DNA of 64,000 nucleotides from the NCBI RefSeq assembly GCF_019139535.1, contig NZ_CP077073.1, positions 3,624,501-3,688,500 of the forward strand. The letters run 5' to 3'. Positions 57,075 through 63,857 of this stretch are shown here, in pieces. A model generated the notes under the pieces. The model was not told the DNA's origin and searched no databases. It was given only the letters and a program-made list of their open reading frames with translations. A program made the translations under genes and the position numbers. Each line of letters opens with the position of its first letter. Positions within the stretch are counted from its first letter, which is position 1. The stretch is from Pseudomonas muyukensis. GTDB lineage: Bacteria > Pseudomonadota > Gammaproteobacteria > Pseudomonadales > Pseudomonadaceae.

Positions 57075-57742
57075 GCGTCGTCGGGCAGGCTGTTCATCTG
57101 ATCACTTCTGTCTTTTCATAGACCGTGAAGCTCTATTCACTTCCAGTGGATTGCTACATTAGGGGCACATCTGAGGGTATGCTTTGGATGATTTGAAAAT
57201 GATACCCCCAGTCTAAGGTCCAACTGTAAGGGGCCGGCGACCACACCTTCCCGACTCCGCCGCCGAAAGCCATGGTGTTCACTTAATACGAGGGCACCAT
57301 CGCCCTTAATGCTGGAGTTCGGAAGGTGACTTTGCCGAACGAATGCGCCACATCCTCCATCAGCTCCTTCGCTATCCCGTTCAGGTAATAGCTGCCCACA
57401 CCAAGGTCACCTTCCTGCCCTGTAACTGCCTACTACATCCAAGCCCTTTACCGTTTCGCGAGAGCGGCGGAGATGGGTTTGTCGACTTTTTACCCTAGTT
57501 TATCCTGTGGCGCAGCTTGAAGCGTTGGACCGACTTGGCTCGTTAGTGCTTGTAGTTAATTCACACTTTCGCCCTTCAGCCTGCATTTTTCACCCCGTCC
57601 GGCGGGCAGGCCAGCGATAACTCGCATGCACCGCCTAGCAACATAAGGGTTCAGGCTAGTGCCAAGAAGGATCTTTGCTGGTCACTACGTTCGGGTGCAG
57701 CGAAGCAGCCGCGCTCGCCTTGATAGGGGCTCGGCAAGACTG
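57075..57742. other. Long noncoding region at island edge
   Basis: 668 bp without a convincing gene, with GC lower than to the left. A short open stretch on the minus strand (57283-57429, 48 codons, containing YYLNGIAKELMEDVAHSFGK) reads protein-like but has upstream stops and no RBS, so it may be a gene fragment. Otherwise nothing identified. Likely junction debris between the chromosome and an integrated island; I saw no tRNA end or attachment duplication. Confidence 0.5.
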
Positions 57743-58618
57743 TCAGTTGGGACTTTTATAGCCTGGGGCAAGCTTGGCGCTTTTAACACCATAAAGAGCT
57801 AGAGGGTCGCTCAACCAGAGTCGATATGCCTCGTCTGCAATGCTGTGATCAGTCGAGCAGTCTACGTGGTACTGCTGCAGTACATACCCAGCCATTGCTG
57901 CACGCACACGCAGCTTGAGTACACCATCAGGCATGTCGTAGTCCCGCATCATGATCTGAGAGCAATTTTTATCCGGGTGTGGAACCAGGGGTAGATCCAA
58001 CATCCGATTCCACTGGTCGTCATTTCTTAGATTTTCGTTCTCCAGAGGCTTCTGCCCCTGCTGAATCTGAGCAGCACCGATTCTGGCTAGAACAAAGTCC
58101 ACAAAATCTTTGCGCTTTCTATCGTAAGCCCGAACATGCCAGCGCAGGCCATCACAGCTAATGGCGAAGGGCACAATTTCACGCTCAGATTCACCCGATG
58201 CCGACGTGTAGCTGATTCTCACTACCTGATTCAGGCTAATCGCGCGCGCGATCGGCGCCAGGATCTCCACCTTAGGCTGGCTGAGCAGCGAAACGGACTC
58301 GTTGAGAATGAGCGGCTTCTCACCATCCAGGCTGTATCCGTATCCCTGCGTTAGAGCAGTGAGTACTCGCTCAGGCGGATGCTCTACCAGCGGAGAGAAT
58401 GTATCTCGAATTACATAAAGCTTGCTGACGGTGTCGAGCTCAGTGTTGGTCGGAGCTATCTCACGATACTGAGCAAAATCTCGAGTAGCAGCCGCAGCGC
58501 CCAAACCGAATCGATCCATCAGGTCATTACGCGAGACCACACCCGTGAAATACAGGCGAAAATCGATATAAACCAGGCGCTCCCGCTGGGCCTGGCTGTA
58601 GTCGCTCAAGTTACTCAT
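57743..58618 (-). CDS. WYL-domain transcriptional regulator (CapW/BrxR-like)
   Basis: 291-aa regulator. An N-terminal winged HTH (QRERLVYIDFRLYFTGVVSR then NDLMDRFGLGAAAATRDFAQY, residues about 8-52), a central WYL domain with VVRISYTSASGESEREIVPFAISCDGLRWHVRAYDRKR, and a C-terminal WCX-type extension (LKLRVRAAMAGYVLQQY). This arrangement is that of CapW/BrxR repressors, which control CBASS, BREX and other defence loci and sit at one end of them. I chose ATG 58618 (MSNLSDYS) because GGAG lies just upstream. A perfect 20-bp palindrome is located 45 bp upstream of the start. Divergent from the small-gene cluster, its likely target. Confidence 0.87.
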   Translation of the reverse strand: MSNLSDYSQAQRERLVYIDFRLYFTGVVSRNDLMDRFGLGAAAATRDFAQYREIAPTNTELDTVSKLYVIRDTFSPLVEHPPERVLTALTQGYGYSLDGEKPLILNESVSLLSQPKVEILAPIARAISLNQVVRISYTSASGESEREIVPFAISCDGLRWHVRAYDRKRKDFVDFVLARIGAAQIQQGQKPLENENLRNDDQWNRMLDLPLVPHPDKNCSQIMMRDYDMPDGVLKLRVRAAMAGYVLQQYHVDCSTDHSIADEAYRLWLSDPLALYGVKSAKLAPGYKSPN

Positions 58619-58662
58619 GTCCACTCCGTCTTGCCTTTTCACCGTCTTACCTGTCTTGCAGT

Positions 58663-58682
58663 CCGACCAGGAACCTGGTCGG
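58663..58682. promoter_or_regulatory. Perfect 20-bp palindrome, probable WYL operator
   Basis: CCGACCAGGAACCTGGTCGG, two 9-bp arms around AA, lying 45 bp upstream of the WYL gene start. Size and position fit a binding site for a homodimeric CapW/BrxR-type repressor acting on itself and on the divergent genes. Confidence 0.62.
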
Positions 58683-58832
58683 TCGTTTCATAAGGATGCA
58701 TCGTAGCACACGATCGCTTGACCTAATCAAATTGATGATGATAGGCTTTGCTCATGGTTTCGATAGGCCATTATCTATACCACCTGACCTAAATTGGAAA
58801 GGGTTCGGATGGAGGCAAATCAGCCAGAAACG

Positions 58833-58970
58833 AAAAAGCCGATCAAGTTCGCACCTTGACCGGCCTTAGGGAAAAGATATCTGAACTGGTTCCAGATATC
58901 TCTCGCGCTTTGTTCAGAAAGCTCTGCGATGGTAGCCCTTGTGGGTTGCTGACGCAAGGGTAGCGAGTTC
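58833..58970 (-). ncRNA. Structured intergenic segment with minus-strand terminator
   Basis: Three inverted repeats in a row: GCCGATCAAG / CTTGACCGGC (58838-58864), followed on the minus strand by TTTTT and so a good leftward terminator; AGATATCTG / CAGATATCT (58875-58901); and CCCTTG / CAAGGG (about 58936-58960). There is no leftward protein gene upstream of the terminator, so it may end a small RNA transcribed from near 59000, or the hairpins may be in the 5' leader of the rightward operon. Confidence 0.4.
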
Positions 58971-59002
58971 TGTGTTCGAGCCGCCTCAGTAGGAGACATC
59001 CA

Positions 59003-59149
59003 ATGTCCCAGCTTGAGATGTTCGACAAGCCCGAAGGCGAAGGCGAGGTCATCTATCGCATGACCATACGCACCCGCAACGGCAAGGTGATACGCCGCGC
59101 GAACGGTCAGCCGTTCCGTATCGTGCTTCGCCCTAAAGCGGCCGATTAA
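59003..59149 (+). CDS. 48-aa hypothetical protein
   Basis: Small gene with a good RBS (AGGAGACATCCA before ATG). The protein runs MSQLEMFDKPEGEGEVIYRM and then TIRTRNGKVIRRANGQPFRI before VLRPKAAD; a predicted two-strand beta structure with a basic second half (RTRNGKVIRRANG). No family recognised. First gene of the rightward set facing the WYL regulator, 64 bp before the beta-flower gene. Codon use and stop context look genuine, but at this length it remains a prediction. Confidence 0.6.
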   Translation: MSQLEMFDKPEGEGEVIYRMTIRTRNGKVIRRANGQPFRIVLRPKAAD

Positions 59150-59213
59150 TTGGTCACTTAACAGAGCTCAGGGCACATTGGTGCCCTACCCTCCTCTCGG
59201 ATGGAGAATTTTC

Positions 59214-59570
59214 ATGCCCTTGAATTTCTATGATCGAGCCGGTACCCCTATAGCGTATACCGATGATGGTGAGCATATCTTCACAATCAGCGGTCGCCCT
59301 GTAGCCTACCTAAACGACGGTTCCGTCTATTCCTACCAGGGACGACACCTAGGCCTCATGGCTGAAGGAGTGATACGCGATAACAGTGGCCATGTCGCCC
59401 TTTTTACCGAAGGTGCAAGACTTGGCGTTACGAGGCCAATGCTTCGACTGATGCCGCTGAAGGGACTGAAGCAGTTAAAGCCTCTCAAGCAATTACGACA
59501 ACTCAGGCCACTGAAGCCGTTAAATCGTATGACTTGGTCTCAGCTATCCGGCCAGAAATTTTTCTTTTAG
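59214..59570 (+). CDS. 4-fold beta-flower domain protein with basic Leu-rich tail
   Basis: 118 aa. Residues about 1-70 repeat a short beta-hairpin unit: FYDRAGTPIAYTDDGEHIF, TISGRPVAYLNDGSVYSYQG, RHLGLMAEGVIRDNSGHVAL, a pattern of the 4-fold beta-flower (Bflower) domain found in small bacterial proteins. Residues about 88-112 are a strongly basic leucine-rich segment repeating LK-x-L (PLKGLKQLKPLKQLRQLRP), and the end is GQKFFF. The tail could be an amphipathic or nucleic-acid/membrane-binding helix. Function unknown. ATG at 59214 (MPLNFYD); the frame opens at 59178. Confidence 0.75.
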   Translation: MPLNFYDRAGTPIAYTDDGEHIFTISGRPVAYLNDGSVYSYQGRHLGLMAEGVIRDNSGHVALFTEGARLGVTRPMLRLMPLKGLKQLKPLKQLRQLRPLKPLNRMTWSQLSGQKFFF

Positions 59571-59591
59571 ATCTCCACACGGTTGCCCCTT

Positions 59592-59609
59592 CACACACGG
59601 ACGTGTGTG
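59592..59609. promoter_or_regulatory. Perfect hairpin between beta-flower and DUF6338 genes
   Basis: CACACACG-GA-CGTGTGTG, 22 bases after the beta-flower stop. It has no T tract on either strand, so it is not a standard terminator; it may be an RNA-processing or regulator site. Confidence 0.4.
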
Positions 59610-59661
59610 CGGAGTAATCATTCAAGATCCTTCGTTGCTCATCACGAGAGAACCCGGGATT

Positions 59662-59675
59662 TCACCTGCAGGTGA
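59662..59675. promoter_or_regulatory. Perfect 14-bp palindrome upstream of DUF6338-like gene
   Basis: TCACCTGCAGGTGA, 17 bases before the ATG and just upstream of its GGAGG. It can act as a DNA operator or, in RNA, fold next to the ribosome binding site. Confidence 0.4.
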
Positions 59676-59692
59676 GATTTCGGAGGTGCAAG

Positions 59693-60307
59693 ATGGAAGA
59701 CCTAGCTACAAAAATCGTTCCGTTGGTTCAGACTCTTATCCCAGGCTTCCTCACCGCCATGATTTTCTACTGGCTGGCAGATGTGAAAAAGCCTGGCCAG
59801 TTCGAACGCACAGTTCAGGCACTGATCGGTACCGGCCTGATAACCATGATGATCGCAGGCATAAAGGGAGGCCTGGGTTTGGTTGGTGAGCATTACTTCA
59901 CAATGGGTGAGTGGAGCCCCCAGGTAGAGGGTGTCTGGGGTATCGGCCTGGCTGTAGTATTGGGCCTGCTCCTGGCATTCGCATCGAACCACGACTACCT
60001 ATACAGATTCGCCCGATGGCTGACCCTCACCTCGCGATCCTCATATCCAGAATGGATTTATGCGTTTCGCAAGCGGGAAGGTATGAGCGTTGTGTTGACT
60101 CTGCTCGATGGTCGTCGGCTTTTCGGGTATCCCGCGGTTTGGCCAACCGATCCTAAGGACGGGCATTTTCTTATCACTTACCCGTGTTGGATGGACGAGA
60201 ACAACCAGTGGATAGAGACGCCTGGAATTGAGAGCTATCTCATCGCCAACTGTGATGTCTACCTGATCGAATTCTTAGAAGAGGTAACCGAAAATGAGCA
60301 ACGATAA
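59693..60307 (+). CDS. DUF6338-like membrane protein
   Basis: 204 aa. Three membrane helices: IVPLVQTLIPGFLTAMIFYW (about 6-26), TVQALIGTGLITMMIAGIKG (about 37-60) and GIGLAVVLGLLLAFAS (about 80-97), followed by a cytoplasmic beta-rich domain of about 85 residues (SVVLTLLDGRRLFGYPAVWP, HFLITYPCWMDENNQW, ESYLIANCDVYLIEFLEEV) that reads like a small SH3/Sm-like barrel. Similar membrane proteins (DUF6338) are scattered in islands and of unknown role. GGAGG eight bases before ATG 59693. The 3' end overlaps the first proline-rich mini-gene by 14 bases. Confidence 0.78.
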   Translation: MEDLATKIVPLVQTLIPGFLTAMIFYWLADVKKPGQFERTVQALIGTGLITMMIAGIKGGLGLVGEHYFTMGEWSPQVEGVWGIGLAVVLGLLLAFASNHDYLYRFARWLTLTSRSSYPEWIYAFRKREGMSVVLTLLDGRRLFGYPAVWPTDPKDGHFLITYPCWMDENNQWIETPGIESYLIANCDVYLIEFLEEVTENEQR

Positions 60308-60434
60308 CCGACCTAGGCAGCATGTGCTTGAACAGCGGCTTGCCAACGATGGCATGAACGTCAGTCCCCCGGCACCAACAAATATTCGCCCTAAAGTACC
60401 ACCACCAGCTCCGCCGAAAGCCCCGAAGAAATAA
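60294..60434 (+). CDS. 46-aa proline-rich mini-protein 1
   Basis: ATG inside the end of the DUF6338-like gene (14-base overlap, different frame), stop TAA at 60432-60434. N-terminal half is polar (MSNDNRPRQHVLEQRLANDG), C-terminal tail is proline/lysine-rich: VPPPAPPKAPKK with a PPP run. No signal peptide. It is followed nine bases later by the next mini-gene. No known family. Confidence 0.62.
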   Translation: MSNDNRPRQHVLEQRLANDGMNVSPPAPTNIRPKVPPPAPPKAPKK

Positions 60435-60443
60435 GAGGTTAAA

Positions 60444-60569
60444 ATGTACGAAGAAAGAGGGATATCACCCAAACCACACCGGCCAACTCCTGGACAGTCA
60501 AGTCCATCTAAGCCCTTTGCTCAACGTCCAGCTACACCTCCCAAAGCACCACCACCCAACAAACGGTGA
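60444..60569 (+). CDS. 41-aa proline-rich mini-protein 2
   Basis: AGAGG seven bases before the ATG. MYEERGISPKPHRPTPGQSS with tail ATPPKAPPPNKR, again ending in a PPP run and basic residues. 17% proline or more and predicted disordered. Spaced nine bases after mini-gene 1 and five bases before mini-gene 3, so an operon arrangement. Confidence 0.58.
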   Translation: MYEERGISPKPHRPTPGQSSPSKPFAQRPATPPKAPPPNKR

Positions 60570-60574
60570 TCAGC

Positions 60575-60691
60575 ATGACCAATCAAACTGGCGGTAAGAT
60601 TCACGTTAACGACGGTATAAGCAAGCAAACAACAAGTCAGCGCCCGGCAGCTCCACCAGTTGCACCTCCGCCAGCGCCTCCAAAGCGATAA
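60575..60691 (+). CDS. 38-aa proline-rich mini-protein 3
   Basis: MTNQTGGKIHVNDGISKQTT with tail PVAPPPAPPKR. Third in a row with the same type of ending (PPPxPPK/R), while the N-terminal halves of the three differ. RBS is weak (GGTGA overlapping the previous stop), which fits translational coupling. No known family. Confidence 0.55.
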   Translation: MTNQTGGKIHVNDGISKQTTSQRPAAPPVAPPPAPPKR

Positions 60692-61238: not shown

Positions 61239-63857
61239 ATGCACATCACTTTTGGCCTTTTCCTGGACGCCCGTCAGGGTCCGTCCCCAACGAACTTCTT
61301 CAATAACCCGATAGTAGGCCGTCTCGGTTTCCTGTCCCTGCTGGAGACCTACCTTGGTCTAAGCGCGCCAGAAGCCTCAACGGCCAGACGCGTGACCATT
61401 TACTCCGGCCTGCTGCGGGCTCATGACAACGACTCGCGCTTCTACAGCGACTCCCTGAAGGTCGACAGCATTGGCACTGCCGCGCGCCTCCTGGCTTGGC
61501 GTGACGAGTGGCGGCTTGGCGGCTGGGACGGCAGCGCGAATCCGGAGCATCCACCGCGAATCCAAGAACTTGCGGCCGTCGAAAAGACCGCTCTCGAAGC
61601 ACTGCCGCCCGGAGAGGCCGAGCGCTTGCATCTGGTGATACAAGCTCTGAGTGCCTCCGGCCCCTGCCCCATCAGGTCAGTTCACCTGGTTGACCCGCCT
61701 GAGGACTTCCCGCGCCTCTGGCAGCAGGTGTTGGAGCGCCTGCCCGAGGTCGAAGTTCGCCTTCCTGAACCACAGGGAGCAAGCCAGCTCCGCGCGGTGC
61801 AGGAGCACGCCCTGACCGTGCTGAACGGAGGCTCTGCGGGAAATTCGGCTGTGCCGACCGACGGGAGCATCTTGCTGGTACACACCCTCGCAATCACTAC
61901 CGCCGAACATTGGCTAGGCACGCAGCACGTGCACACGCCCGGAGACCGACTGATCCTGGCCGAGGATGCAGGAGACTCACTGGACGTATCACTGTCTGTT
62001 TCTGGTAGCGTCAACTGCGGGTTCGAACGTCCTAGTCAGCTGCGCCCGGCCCTTCAGGCACTAGCCCTTGCCTTGGAGCTGTGTTGGGACCCAGTGGACA
62101 TGAACCGCCTTTTGGACTTCCTGACTCATCCGGTCGGCCCATTCAGTCGCGCTGCGAGAAGCAGACTCGCACGCGCTGTCGCCAACCAACCCGGGATAGG
62201 TGGCGAAGCCTGGACGACAGCCAAGAACAAGATCGCCGCAGATGACGATGCCCAGGAAGTGGCAGATGAAATCACCTTCTGGCTGGAATCAGAGCGCTGG
62301 GCACGCACAGATGGAGTGCCGGTAGATGCACTGATCGCTCGCGTCGATCGGATGCAGGAGGCTATGCGGCGTCGCCTCTTGGGTGAGCCTGCTGACGCGG
62401 CAAGCTTTATGGCGGCGCATAGCCAATGTGCGGCTGTTCATGACGCATTGACCGAGCTGGCTCGGCAAGGTGTGGCCAAGCTACTGCCTCGACAAGTCGA
62501 ACAGTTGGTCGCCCACGCCACACCCGCCGGAGCAACCAATCCCGCTGCGGTTTCCCATATTGGTTGCATGCGCTCGAGCAGCACGGCAGCCGCCTGCATC
62601 GAAGCAGCTGATGAAGTGATCTGGTGGATGCCGTCGACGCCTGCCCTGCCCTCGCCTCTGCCTTGGTCTCCTGCCGAGGTGAATGCTCTAACTCAATTAG
62701 GTGTGCAGTTGCGAGACCCGGCGCGTGAGCTTGTATCGTTAGCACTGAGGTGGCTGCGGCCACTACTTGCCGCGAGAAAAAGATTCATCATCGTCTGCCC
62801 TCCTCCTGGTTCAGAAGTGCATCCGATTCGTCAGCTTCTTAAGAAGCTCGTACCGGATATCGAGTCCGCGTCGCTTGACTTGGACACCGCACTCAATTCC
62901 ACGCTACTAGGGGTAACCGCCGAGGTGCTTGCACCTCAGGCGCTGCCCGCTACTCCACGACACATCCAACTGCCTCATCCCGTGCAGCTCGGCGACGCCC
63001 TACAGTCGTTCACTACGCTGAACGAGCTTTTCAATGATGCAGCCCTATTCGTTTTGAAACGAGTGGCGAAGCTGGATCCCACCTCAGTCCTAGAGGTTGA
63101 TGAGGGCAACCGCCTGCTGGGCATCCTCGCTCATCGGGTGCTCGAGAAACTCTTCGCGCACGACAAAGCCTTGAGTTGGTCAAACGCCGAAGCCGTTGAC
63201 TGGTTCCGCGCCGTAGCCGACTCACTCTTACTGACTGAAGGCGCTGTACTGCTCATGCAGGGTGCGGGGGTAACACAGCAGCACTTCCGGCAGGTATGCG
63301 AACGAGCCATCGGAAGTCTCCTCGATCACCTCAGGCTCGCAGGTGCCATTCAGGTTCAGACTGAGGTGGAGTTCAGAGGAACCTTGGGAGCAGTCCCGCT
63401 GATCGGCAAAATTGACCTCTTGGTCACACTTGGTGACAAGCGAACTGTCGCCGTGGACATAAAGTGGAGGGGCGATACCTACTACGCCGGGCTGCTTCGC
63501 TCTGGCGAGCACCTACAGTTGGCGCTCTACTCCAGCCTCATTGAGCAAACAAGCGGTATCGCACCCGCCGCGCTTGGCTATTTCATCCTGGAAAGTGGCG
63601 GGCTGTACATCACCGCTGCCGACATCTTCCCAAAAGCGCAAGTCAGAAGACCGCCGGACGGCGTAACCGCCTCCAATCTACTGGACCGCGCCCGCGCTAC
63701 CTGGAAGTGGCGCAAGCAGCAGCTGGACGCCGGGACCATCGAAGTCGTTCCGGAAGATCCGAACGACGAGTACCAGGGCCCTGAGGGAACCTTTCCGGTC
63801 AACGGTCCAAGCAAATGGGACCGAGACCATCTTATCTTGCTGGGAGGCTGGAAGTGA
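61239..63857 (+). CDS. AddB/RexB-like PD-(D/E)XK nuclease
   Basis: 872 aa. The C-terminal domain (about residues 620-800) has the RecB-family nuclease pattern: LLGILAHRVLEKLF (His), LIGKIDLLVTLGDKRTVAVDIKW (Asp, Asp-x-Lys) and HLQLALYSSL (Gln/Tyr motif). The preceding 600 residues have no intact Walker A and look like the inactive helicase-like part of AddB. The stop overlaps the start of the helicase gene by one base (TGATG), and such AddAB-type pairs act as helicase-nucleases. The Fe-S cysteines of AddB are not evident. RBS AAGGAAG lies 10-16 bases before the ATG. A defence role is suggested by the neighbourhood and is inference. Confidence 0.82.
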   Translation: MHITFGLFLDARQGPSPTNFFNNPIVGRLGFLSLLETYLGLSAPEASTARRVTIYSGLLRAHDNDSRFYSDSLKVDSIGTAARLLAWRDEWRLGGWDGSANPEHPPRIQELAAVEKTALEALPPGEAERLHLVIQALSASGPCPIRSVHLVDPPEDFPRLWQQVLERLPEVEVRLPEPQGASQLRAVQEHALTVLNGGSAGNSAVPTDGSILLVHTLAITTAEHWLGTQHVHTPGDRLILAEDAGDSLDVSLSVSGSVNCGFERPSQLRPALQALALALELCWDPVDMNRLLDFLTHPVGPFSRAARSRLARAVANQPGIGGEAWTTAKNKIAADDDAQEVADEITFWLESERWARTDGVPVDALIARVDRMQEAMRRRLLGEPADAASFMAAHSQCAAVHDALTELARQGVAKLLPRQVEQLVAHATPAGATNPAAVSHIGCMRSSSTAAACIEAADEVIWWMPSTPALPSPLPWSPAEVNALTQLGVQLRDPARELVSLALRWLRPLLAARKRFIIVCPPPGSEVHPIRQLLKKLVPDIESASLDLDTALNSTLLGVTAEVLAPQALPATPRHIQLPHPVQLGDALQSFTTLNELFNDAALFVLKRVAKLDPTSVLEVDEGNRLLGILAHRVLEKLFAHDKALSWSNAEAVDWFRAVADSLLLTEGAVLLMQGAGVTQQHFRQVCERAIGSLLDHLRLAGAIQVQTEVEFRGTLGAVPLIGKIDLLVTLGDKRTVAVDIKWRGDTYYAGLLRSGEHLQLALYSSLIEQTSGIAPAALGYFILESGGLYITAADIFPKAQVRRPPDGVTASNLLDRARATWKWRKQQLDAGTIEVVPEDPNDEYQGPEGTFPVNGPSKWDRDHLILLGGWK

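Follow-up and report, generated by a model that had tools for sequence, protein, structure and literature searches.

What does the compact gene cluster at the left end of an island of low GC content in Pseudomonas muyukensis encode, and which of its genes belong together? The stretch of DNA analysed here (the window, 64,000 nucleotides; contig NZ_CP077073.1, C1:3624501-3688500) comes from a host genome assembled as one contig of 5.53 Mb, and near 57 kb its GC content of 0.66 drops to about 0.53. At this edge a WYL-domain regulator is divergent from a rightward series of small genes, which the original prediction had treated as one system of five to six genes. All the frames it described are present, including the overlap at the start of the first mini-protein and the 9- and 5-base gaps before the other two, and Pfam confirmed the WYL, Bflower and DUF6338 identities. 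The extent of the system is nevertheless different. The core consists of the gene for a DUF6338 protein of 204 amino acids (aa) at 59693..60307 on the forward strand (PF19865, E 6e-15) and three mini-protein genes at 60294-60691 on the same strand: m1 (60294..60434, 46 aa), which overlaps the end of the DUF6338 gene, m2 (60444..60569, 41 aa) and m3 (60575..60691, 38 aa from the ATG). DUF6338 and the minis almost certainly form a genuine module of two components that is widespread and had so far gone unrecognised.

The minis were examined for signs that they are genes. The m1 protein has a G-M-N-V-S-P-P motif and its gene an AGAGG-type ribosome site (by eye), m2 has a MYEERGISP head and m3 a G-I-S-K-x-T-T-S-Q-R-P element; all three end in a proline tail, and m2 and m3 are kept in the six closest relatives of the locus (L002-L007). 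All three types occur in the same order in the seven DUF6338 loci of the window clade (the window and L002-L007), of which L004 carries four minis. Pooled over the seven sequences (21 pairs), the ratio of nonsynonymous to synonymous differences (pN/pS) was 0.39 for m1, 0.31 for m2, 0.27 for m3 and 0.20 for DUF6338, these ratios being rough because synonymous sites are near saturation. The three minis are under purifying selection across the seven relatives, and their ratios are not near 1, the value that the original prediction had linked to frames without conservation. A loose proline-tail test (at least five prolines among the last 22 residues of an open reading frame within 1 kb downstream) was positive for 98 of 110 DUF6338 loci, as compared with 24/106 for the antisense strand, 24/97 further downstream and 11/102 upstream. 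Given this excess over the controls and the pN/pS ratios, chance open frames were rejected as an explanation, and the three mini-frames can be regarded as genes that belong with DUF6338. The earlier observation that the minis differ in their N-terminal halves holds only in part, as across the family a G-x-N-P type motif is common to these halves. In the PPP class, 93 of 106 first minis contained the triproline PPP, as did two of nine minis of the GYQP type. A homologue search with 27 mini queries scored 7977 proteins, of which 14 reached an E-value of 1e-3 or lower; this says little because the words are of low complexity and most minis are unannotated. No natural fusion between DUF6338 and a mini was seen among the 16 longest proteins inspected, and for the minis and the 48-aa gene of the cluster nothing above chance was found in Pfam, PADLOC or NCBIfam (best: m3, Pfam E 0.39).

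Among 298 Pseudomonas genomes 44 carry DUF6338, as do 8 of the 198 genomes sampled across the family; the gene was also found on one of 72,556 plasmids (from Paludisphaera, a planctomycete) and in 64 predicted viral contigs. Across the phylum, PF19865 matched in 26 of 398 genomes, 20 of these above the cut-off. The archaeon Haloferax volcanii, included as a control genome, also had a PF19865 match above its cut-off. A proline-tailed small frame lay downstream of the gene at 45/46 Pseudomonas loci and at 58/65 viral or plasmid loci. When a mini was required to begin between -88 and +54 bases relative to the DUF6338 stop, one was present at 103 of 111 near-related loci, five of them with a mini that has the G-x-N-P element and lacks the proline-rich end. 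At the remaining loci the mini was located past an interrupted DUF6338 frame (L049, L076, L092 and L141) or in an overlapping frame (L093 and L094), one locus was truncated (L008) and in one the contig ended two bases after the DUF6338 stop (L124). The largest array had seven minis in series (L125). The pairing extends to distant PF19865 loci in other Pseudomonadota, where 17 of 18 had a small proline-containing frame directly downstream with a GYQP-like (nine rows), EGYVxKGG (L159 and L162) or PPP signature, and one, L152, had no convincing mini. The mini signature classes, placed on a tree built from 113 DUF6338 proteins, needed four changes (minimum possible three), as compared with 12.8 on average for shuffled labels, and none of 200 shuffles was as low as four; the PPP label was here given by the loose rule of at least five prolines, so that L152 also received it. 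The mini motif class tracks the DUF6338 tree, a concordance rather than an exact history given the many long branches and the loosely given PPP label.

A similar arrangement has been published for P. stutzeri ATCC 14405, in the one paper on DUF6338 found in the open-licence literature. As described there (PMC10433244, 2023), three proline-rich proteins of <50 aa are encoded in one predicted operon together with a DUF6338 gene and were detected by mass spectrometry with 44-114 spectra each; the DUF6338 protein was not seen, and membrane fractions were not analysed. The authors state that the small proteins lack conservation outside P. stutzeri, suggest that they are de novo genes and mention an antimicrobial role as a possibility. 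The gene arrangement suggests that they belong to the mini family described here, and if they do, the published conservation claim fails. The minis as proline-rich antimicrobial peptides, with DUF6338 as their exporter or immunity protein, would fit their proline-rich and basic ends as well as the possibility raised in PMC10433244. However, no export signal or signal peptide was seen in the minis by eye, what they conserve is a motif (GxNP, GYQP or EGYV) that tracks DUF6338, unlike a variable toxin, and minis of the GYQP type are not PPP-rich (2/9), which makes this explanation very unlikely. The spectral counts bear also on a toxin-antitoxin-like arrangement, in which DUF6338 would be a membrane-damaging toxin and the minis abundant, short-lived antitoxins. 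Obligate pairing, multiplied mini genes, settings in mobile elements and the 44-114 spectra reported for each small protein of P. stutzeri, with the DUF6338 protein not seen, all point in this direction, but the imbalance may be technical because membrane fractions were not analysed in the work reported in PMC10433244. With the toxin gene placed first, several antitoxins per toxin, both of which would be unusual, and no toxicity known, we consider such an arrangement unlikely.

The DUF6338 protein of the window scores 55.8 bits against PF19865 (gathering score 26.5) and is predicted to have three membrane helices (residues 2-28, 36-67 and 76-99) followed by a C-terminal Sm-like barrel at about 120-195. 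Mean loop charges of -1.7, +0.8, -0.5 and +3.8 predict a topology with the N-terminus outside and the C-terminus inside. No relative of solved structure was found by sequence at E up to 1. The AlphaFold2 model (pLDDT, its predicted local confidence score, 82.6) has the N-terminal helix and five-strand bent barrel by which the Sm/LSm fold is defined, two DUF6338 models gave Sm matches (Foldseek, VIA), and the best 50 matches of the structure search were all Sm-type chains. Because the folds nearest to it belong to Sm proteins of archaea and eukaryotes, DUF6338 might be thought a membrane-tethered RNA-handling Sm protein with the minis as disordered cofactors. The positions by which Sm proteins contact RNA do not appear to be kept when compared by eye with the known motif, however (the loop has the sequence PTDP, and R-G is missing from the last strand), and a common fold alone shows no function; such a role appears distinctly improbable.

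Sm folds form rings, either hexameric or heptameric. We propose that DUF6338 sits in the inner membrane, that its Sm-like barrel lies in the cytosol and probably forms a ring, and that the minis may act as short disordered cytosolic partners, likely binding the barrel through their G-x-N-P (or GYQP) element and proline tail. The bound minis would in this way hold the membrane part of DUF6338, gate it or aim it.

The neighbourhoods of the loci point to the setting in which such a module might act. The neighbour scans took in 96 of 108 listed proteins for the viral contigs (compared with PHROGs) and 83 of 92 in a second scan. Minor tail and tail proteins were the commonest named neighbours in the viral contigs (three families with four members each), together with a Q-like antiterminator (4) and DNA methyltransferases. 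In a prophage of E. coli strain 44 the DUF6338 gene lies between genes for an MT-A70 methyltransferase and DUF1367; a distant DNA search found this locus in 2 of 5426 genomes, both of them records of that strain. Each of the six closest relatives of the window locus has a PADLOC match (E up to 1e-20) no more than 6 kb away: a Gabija-like (GajB-like) helicase and the SIR2-bearing PDC-S65 in L002, PDC-S15 in L003, a complete cyclase-HORMA-TRIP13-NucC set (cyclic oligonucleotide-based antiphage signalling, CBASS) in L004, ThsA macro of Thoeris, HerA and SIR2 in L005, with TniB and TniQ directly upstream, SIR2/STALD and IetA in L006 and SIR2/STALD in L007. A defence or signalling role, which was already an inference in the original prediction, is still one, now better supported by these PADLOC matches and prophage settings. 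The Avs1b-like and toxin-antitoxin genes downstream of the window locus and the TIR-type protein found in the same regulatory slot elsewhere, both described below, point the same way. The module would then be mobile cargo of prophages and defence islands, most likely giving protection against phages or rival elements, either as a membrane effector or by superinfection exclusion; for the window clade we lean somewhat towards a protective role.

Several observations weigh against this picture. Within Pseudomonas groups other than the window clade, many DUF6338 copies share one recurrent position in the chromosome, with LysR, transporter and dehydrogenase genes as neighbours, a setting that would suit a housekeeping role equally well. 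The PADLOC neighbour tally has no random-locus control, and PADLOC holds generic enzymes. No PADLOC family matched DUF6338 or the minis at E up to 1, and DUF6338 was found in none of 50,697 phage records, for which the DNA was also searched. The 111 near-related loci are related to each other, several as near-copies, and are hence not independent. The two structural models are not independent either, because the alignment for the second includes window-type sequences, and the best Foldseek E-value of this second model was only 1.6e-3. Given the missing control and the recurring chromosomal site, the association with defence holds for the window clade and the prophages and not for all loci. Alternatively, the module could be a membrane complex with a housekeeping role, such as a minimal MscS-like channel and its regulators, that mobile elements carry incidentally. 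MscS has the topology predicted here and an Sm-like middle domain, and the recurring site would fit, but the distribution is patchy (44/298 Pseudomonas genomes and 8/198 in the family-wide sample) and the prophage and island settings speak against it, so that we regard it as quite unlikely. To the model as a whole, a membrane Sm protein governed by mini partners and carried as mobile cargo for host protection, we assign a probability of roughly 0.5.

PPP runs need elongation factor P for their translation. This allows a more specific speculation, which we consider a long shot: DUF6338 could be a membrane pore shut by the minis, with the hard-to-translate PPP minis serving as a sensor of translation integrity. 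If a phage disturbed translation or the minis were lost, the ring would open and the infected cell would die, the mini copy number setting the threshold. The presence of PPP in 93/106 first minis of its class and arrays of up to seven minis would be in line with such a sensor, but it cannot cover the whole family because only 2/9 minis of the GYQP type contain PPP.

The genes upstream of the core appear to have a history of their own. The WYL-domain regulator (57743..58642, reverse strand, probable ATG start at 58618; PF13280, E 6.7e-13) also matches PADLOC WYL (E 5.1e-23), in agreement with the earlier statement that a regulator of the defence-locus kind stands in front of the cluster; no winged-helix or helix-turn-helix family was found in it by Pfam at E up to 1. 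According to PMC9122601, about half of the BrxR-type WYL regulators are located near known defence systems. Relatives of the regulator at E up to 1e-40 were present in 28 of 298 Pseudomonas genomes. Four of them (L172-L175, 82-83% identity) keep a counterpart (81-85% identity) of the gene for the 48-aa protein (59003..59149, forward strand), and in these loci the next gene encodes a TIR-type protein, recognised as Pfam TIR_2 in L172, L174 and L175 and by similarity of sequence to the other three in L173. In L175 a gene for a reverse transcriptase lies beyond the WYL gene, on the side away from this cargo.

Only three of the 46 Pseudomonas DUF6338 loci (the window, L002 and L003) have the WYL gene, the 48-aa gene and the gene for the Bflower (4-fold beta flower) protein (59214..59570, forward strand; PF21784, E 1e-33), which is thus best seen as accessory. 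The co-occurrence of WYL and DUF6338 put forward in the original prediction is absent from 43 of these 46 loci (in L007 the 441 bases upstream are too short to judge), and the synteny of Bflower with DUF6338 is limited to the three WYL-bearing loci. A single six-gene system was rejected on these counts and because the WYL and 48-aa genes precede TIR-type genes in four other genomes. In L194 a Bflower gene adjoins a UvrD-like helicase gene (by eye) with no DUF6338 gene present; no paper on a beta flower protein was found in the open-licence literature.

Between the WYL and 48-aa genes lies a conserved leader (58815..59002, forward strand), with a mean column identity of 87% over about 200 columns in seven loci of both the TIR and the DUF6338 type. 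It may be a structured RNA: the predicted fold is branched with 51 pairs, two of them changed on both sides (single-sequence z -1.6), and no Rfam family matched at E up to 1. A coding frame was rejected by eye, as single-base insertions and deletions break the frame among the seven copies. A 20-base inverted repeat, CCGACCAGG-AA-CCTGGTCGG, at 58663..58682 beside the WYL start was read from the sequence as a candidate operator, and its full palindrome is not kept in six aligned relatives. Given that the same WYL gene, leader and 48-aa gene stand before both types of cargo, sequence comparison indicates that they are a separate, reusable regulatory cassette whose cargo is swapped between TIR and Bflower-DUF6338. 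In the window the module would thus occupy the cargo slot of a cassette that elsewhere may drive a TIR-type protein.

Scans for promoters and terminators gave signals no commoner than in shuffled sequences, and no tRNA was found at the island edge within the 36 kb scanned. Downstream of the locus lies an AddAB-like pair (61239-63857 and L038:13815-17030), a PD-(D/E)XK nuclease gene and after it the gene for a UvrD-type helicase that itself carries a nuclease domain. Further on are a gene for an Avs1b-like protein of 2031 aa (L038:17448-20000 and L039:1-3543, reverse strand; Avs1b-type match E 2.6e-13), a PrlF-type antitoxin, and a Mks/Wadjet-like set in which DUF6119 is followed by DUF3584, MksE-like and TOPRIM-bearing genes (L039:5929-14281). 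A direct repeat of about 388 bases, 84% identical (57077-57447 and L039:5437-5823), has some 18 kb of the island between its copies.

DUF6338, a Pfam family to which no function has been attached, thus gains a predicted fold and a testable partner, one that is near-constant and has been overlooked by annotation, as in the E. coli prophage record, which annotates DUF6338 but leaves out the mini (L212:12605-12742). The published genes of P. stutzeri, regarded as species-specific and possibly de novo, would become conserved members of a large family if they belong to it. The module is also a candidate protective system for the host, unusual in its architecture of a membrane-anchored Sm barrel together with an array of disordered proline-tailed peptides, and the WYL cassette with TIR or DUF6338 cargo offers a handle on the swapping of defence genes under one switch.

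As stated in the original prediction, no described system with such a gene set was found in the open-licence literature, and the DUF6338-mini module looks undescribed as a two-part system. Its closest published likeness is the P. stutzeri operon, where a DUF6338 gene is accompanied by three short proline-rich proteins (<50 aa); PMC10433244 describes these as confined to P. stutzeri, whereas the pairing found here spans Pseudomonas, E. coli, a planctomycete plasmid and predicted viral contigs. The BrxR/CapW-type WYL regulators, as presented in PMC9122601, are likewise divergent from defence-type cargo, whereas the present cassette adds the 48-aa gene and the conserved leader and swaps TIR for Bflower-DUF6338 cargo. 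In fold, the DUF6338 barrel is closest to Sm/LSm proteins (SmAP1, 1loj; AF-Sm1, 1i5l; spliceosomal Sm), but it is fused to three membrane helices and its RNA-contact residues are unrecognisable by eye. MscS has three membrane helices, the N-terminus outside and the C-terminus inside, and an Sm-like cytosolic domain, and in these features the predicted DUF6338 protein resembles it; DUF6338 differs in having no alpha-beta C-terminal domain, and MscS was not among the structure matches listed.

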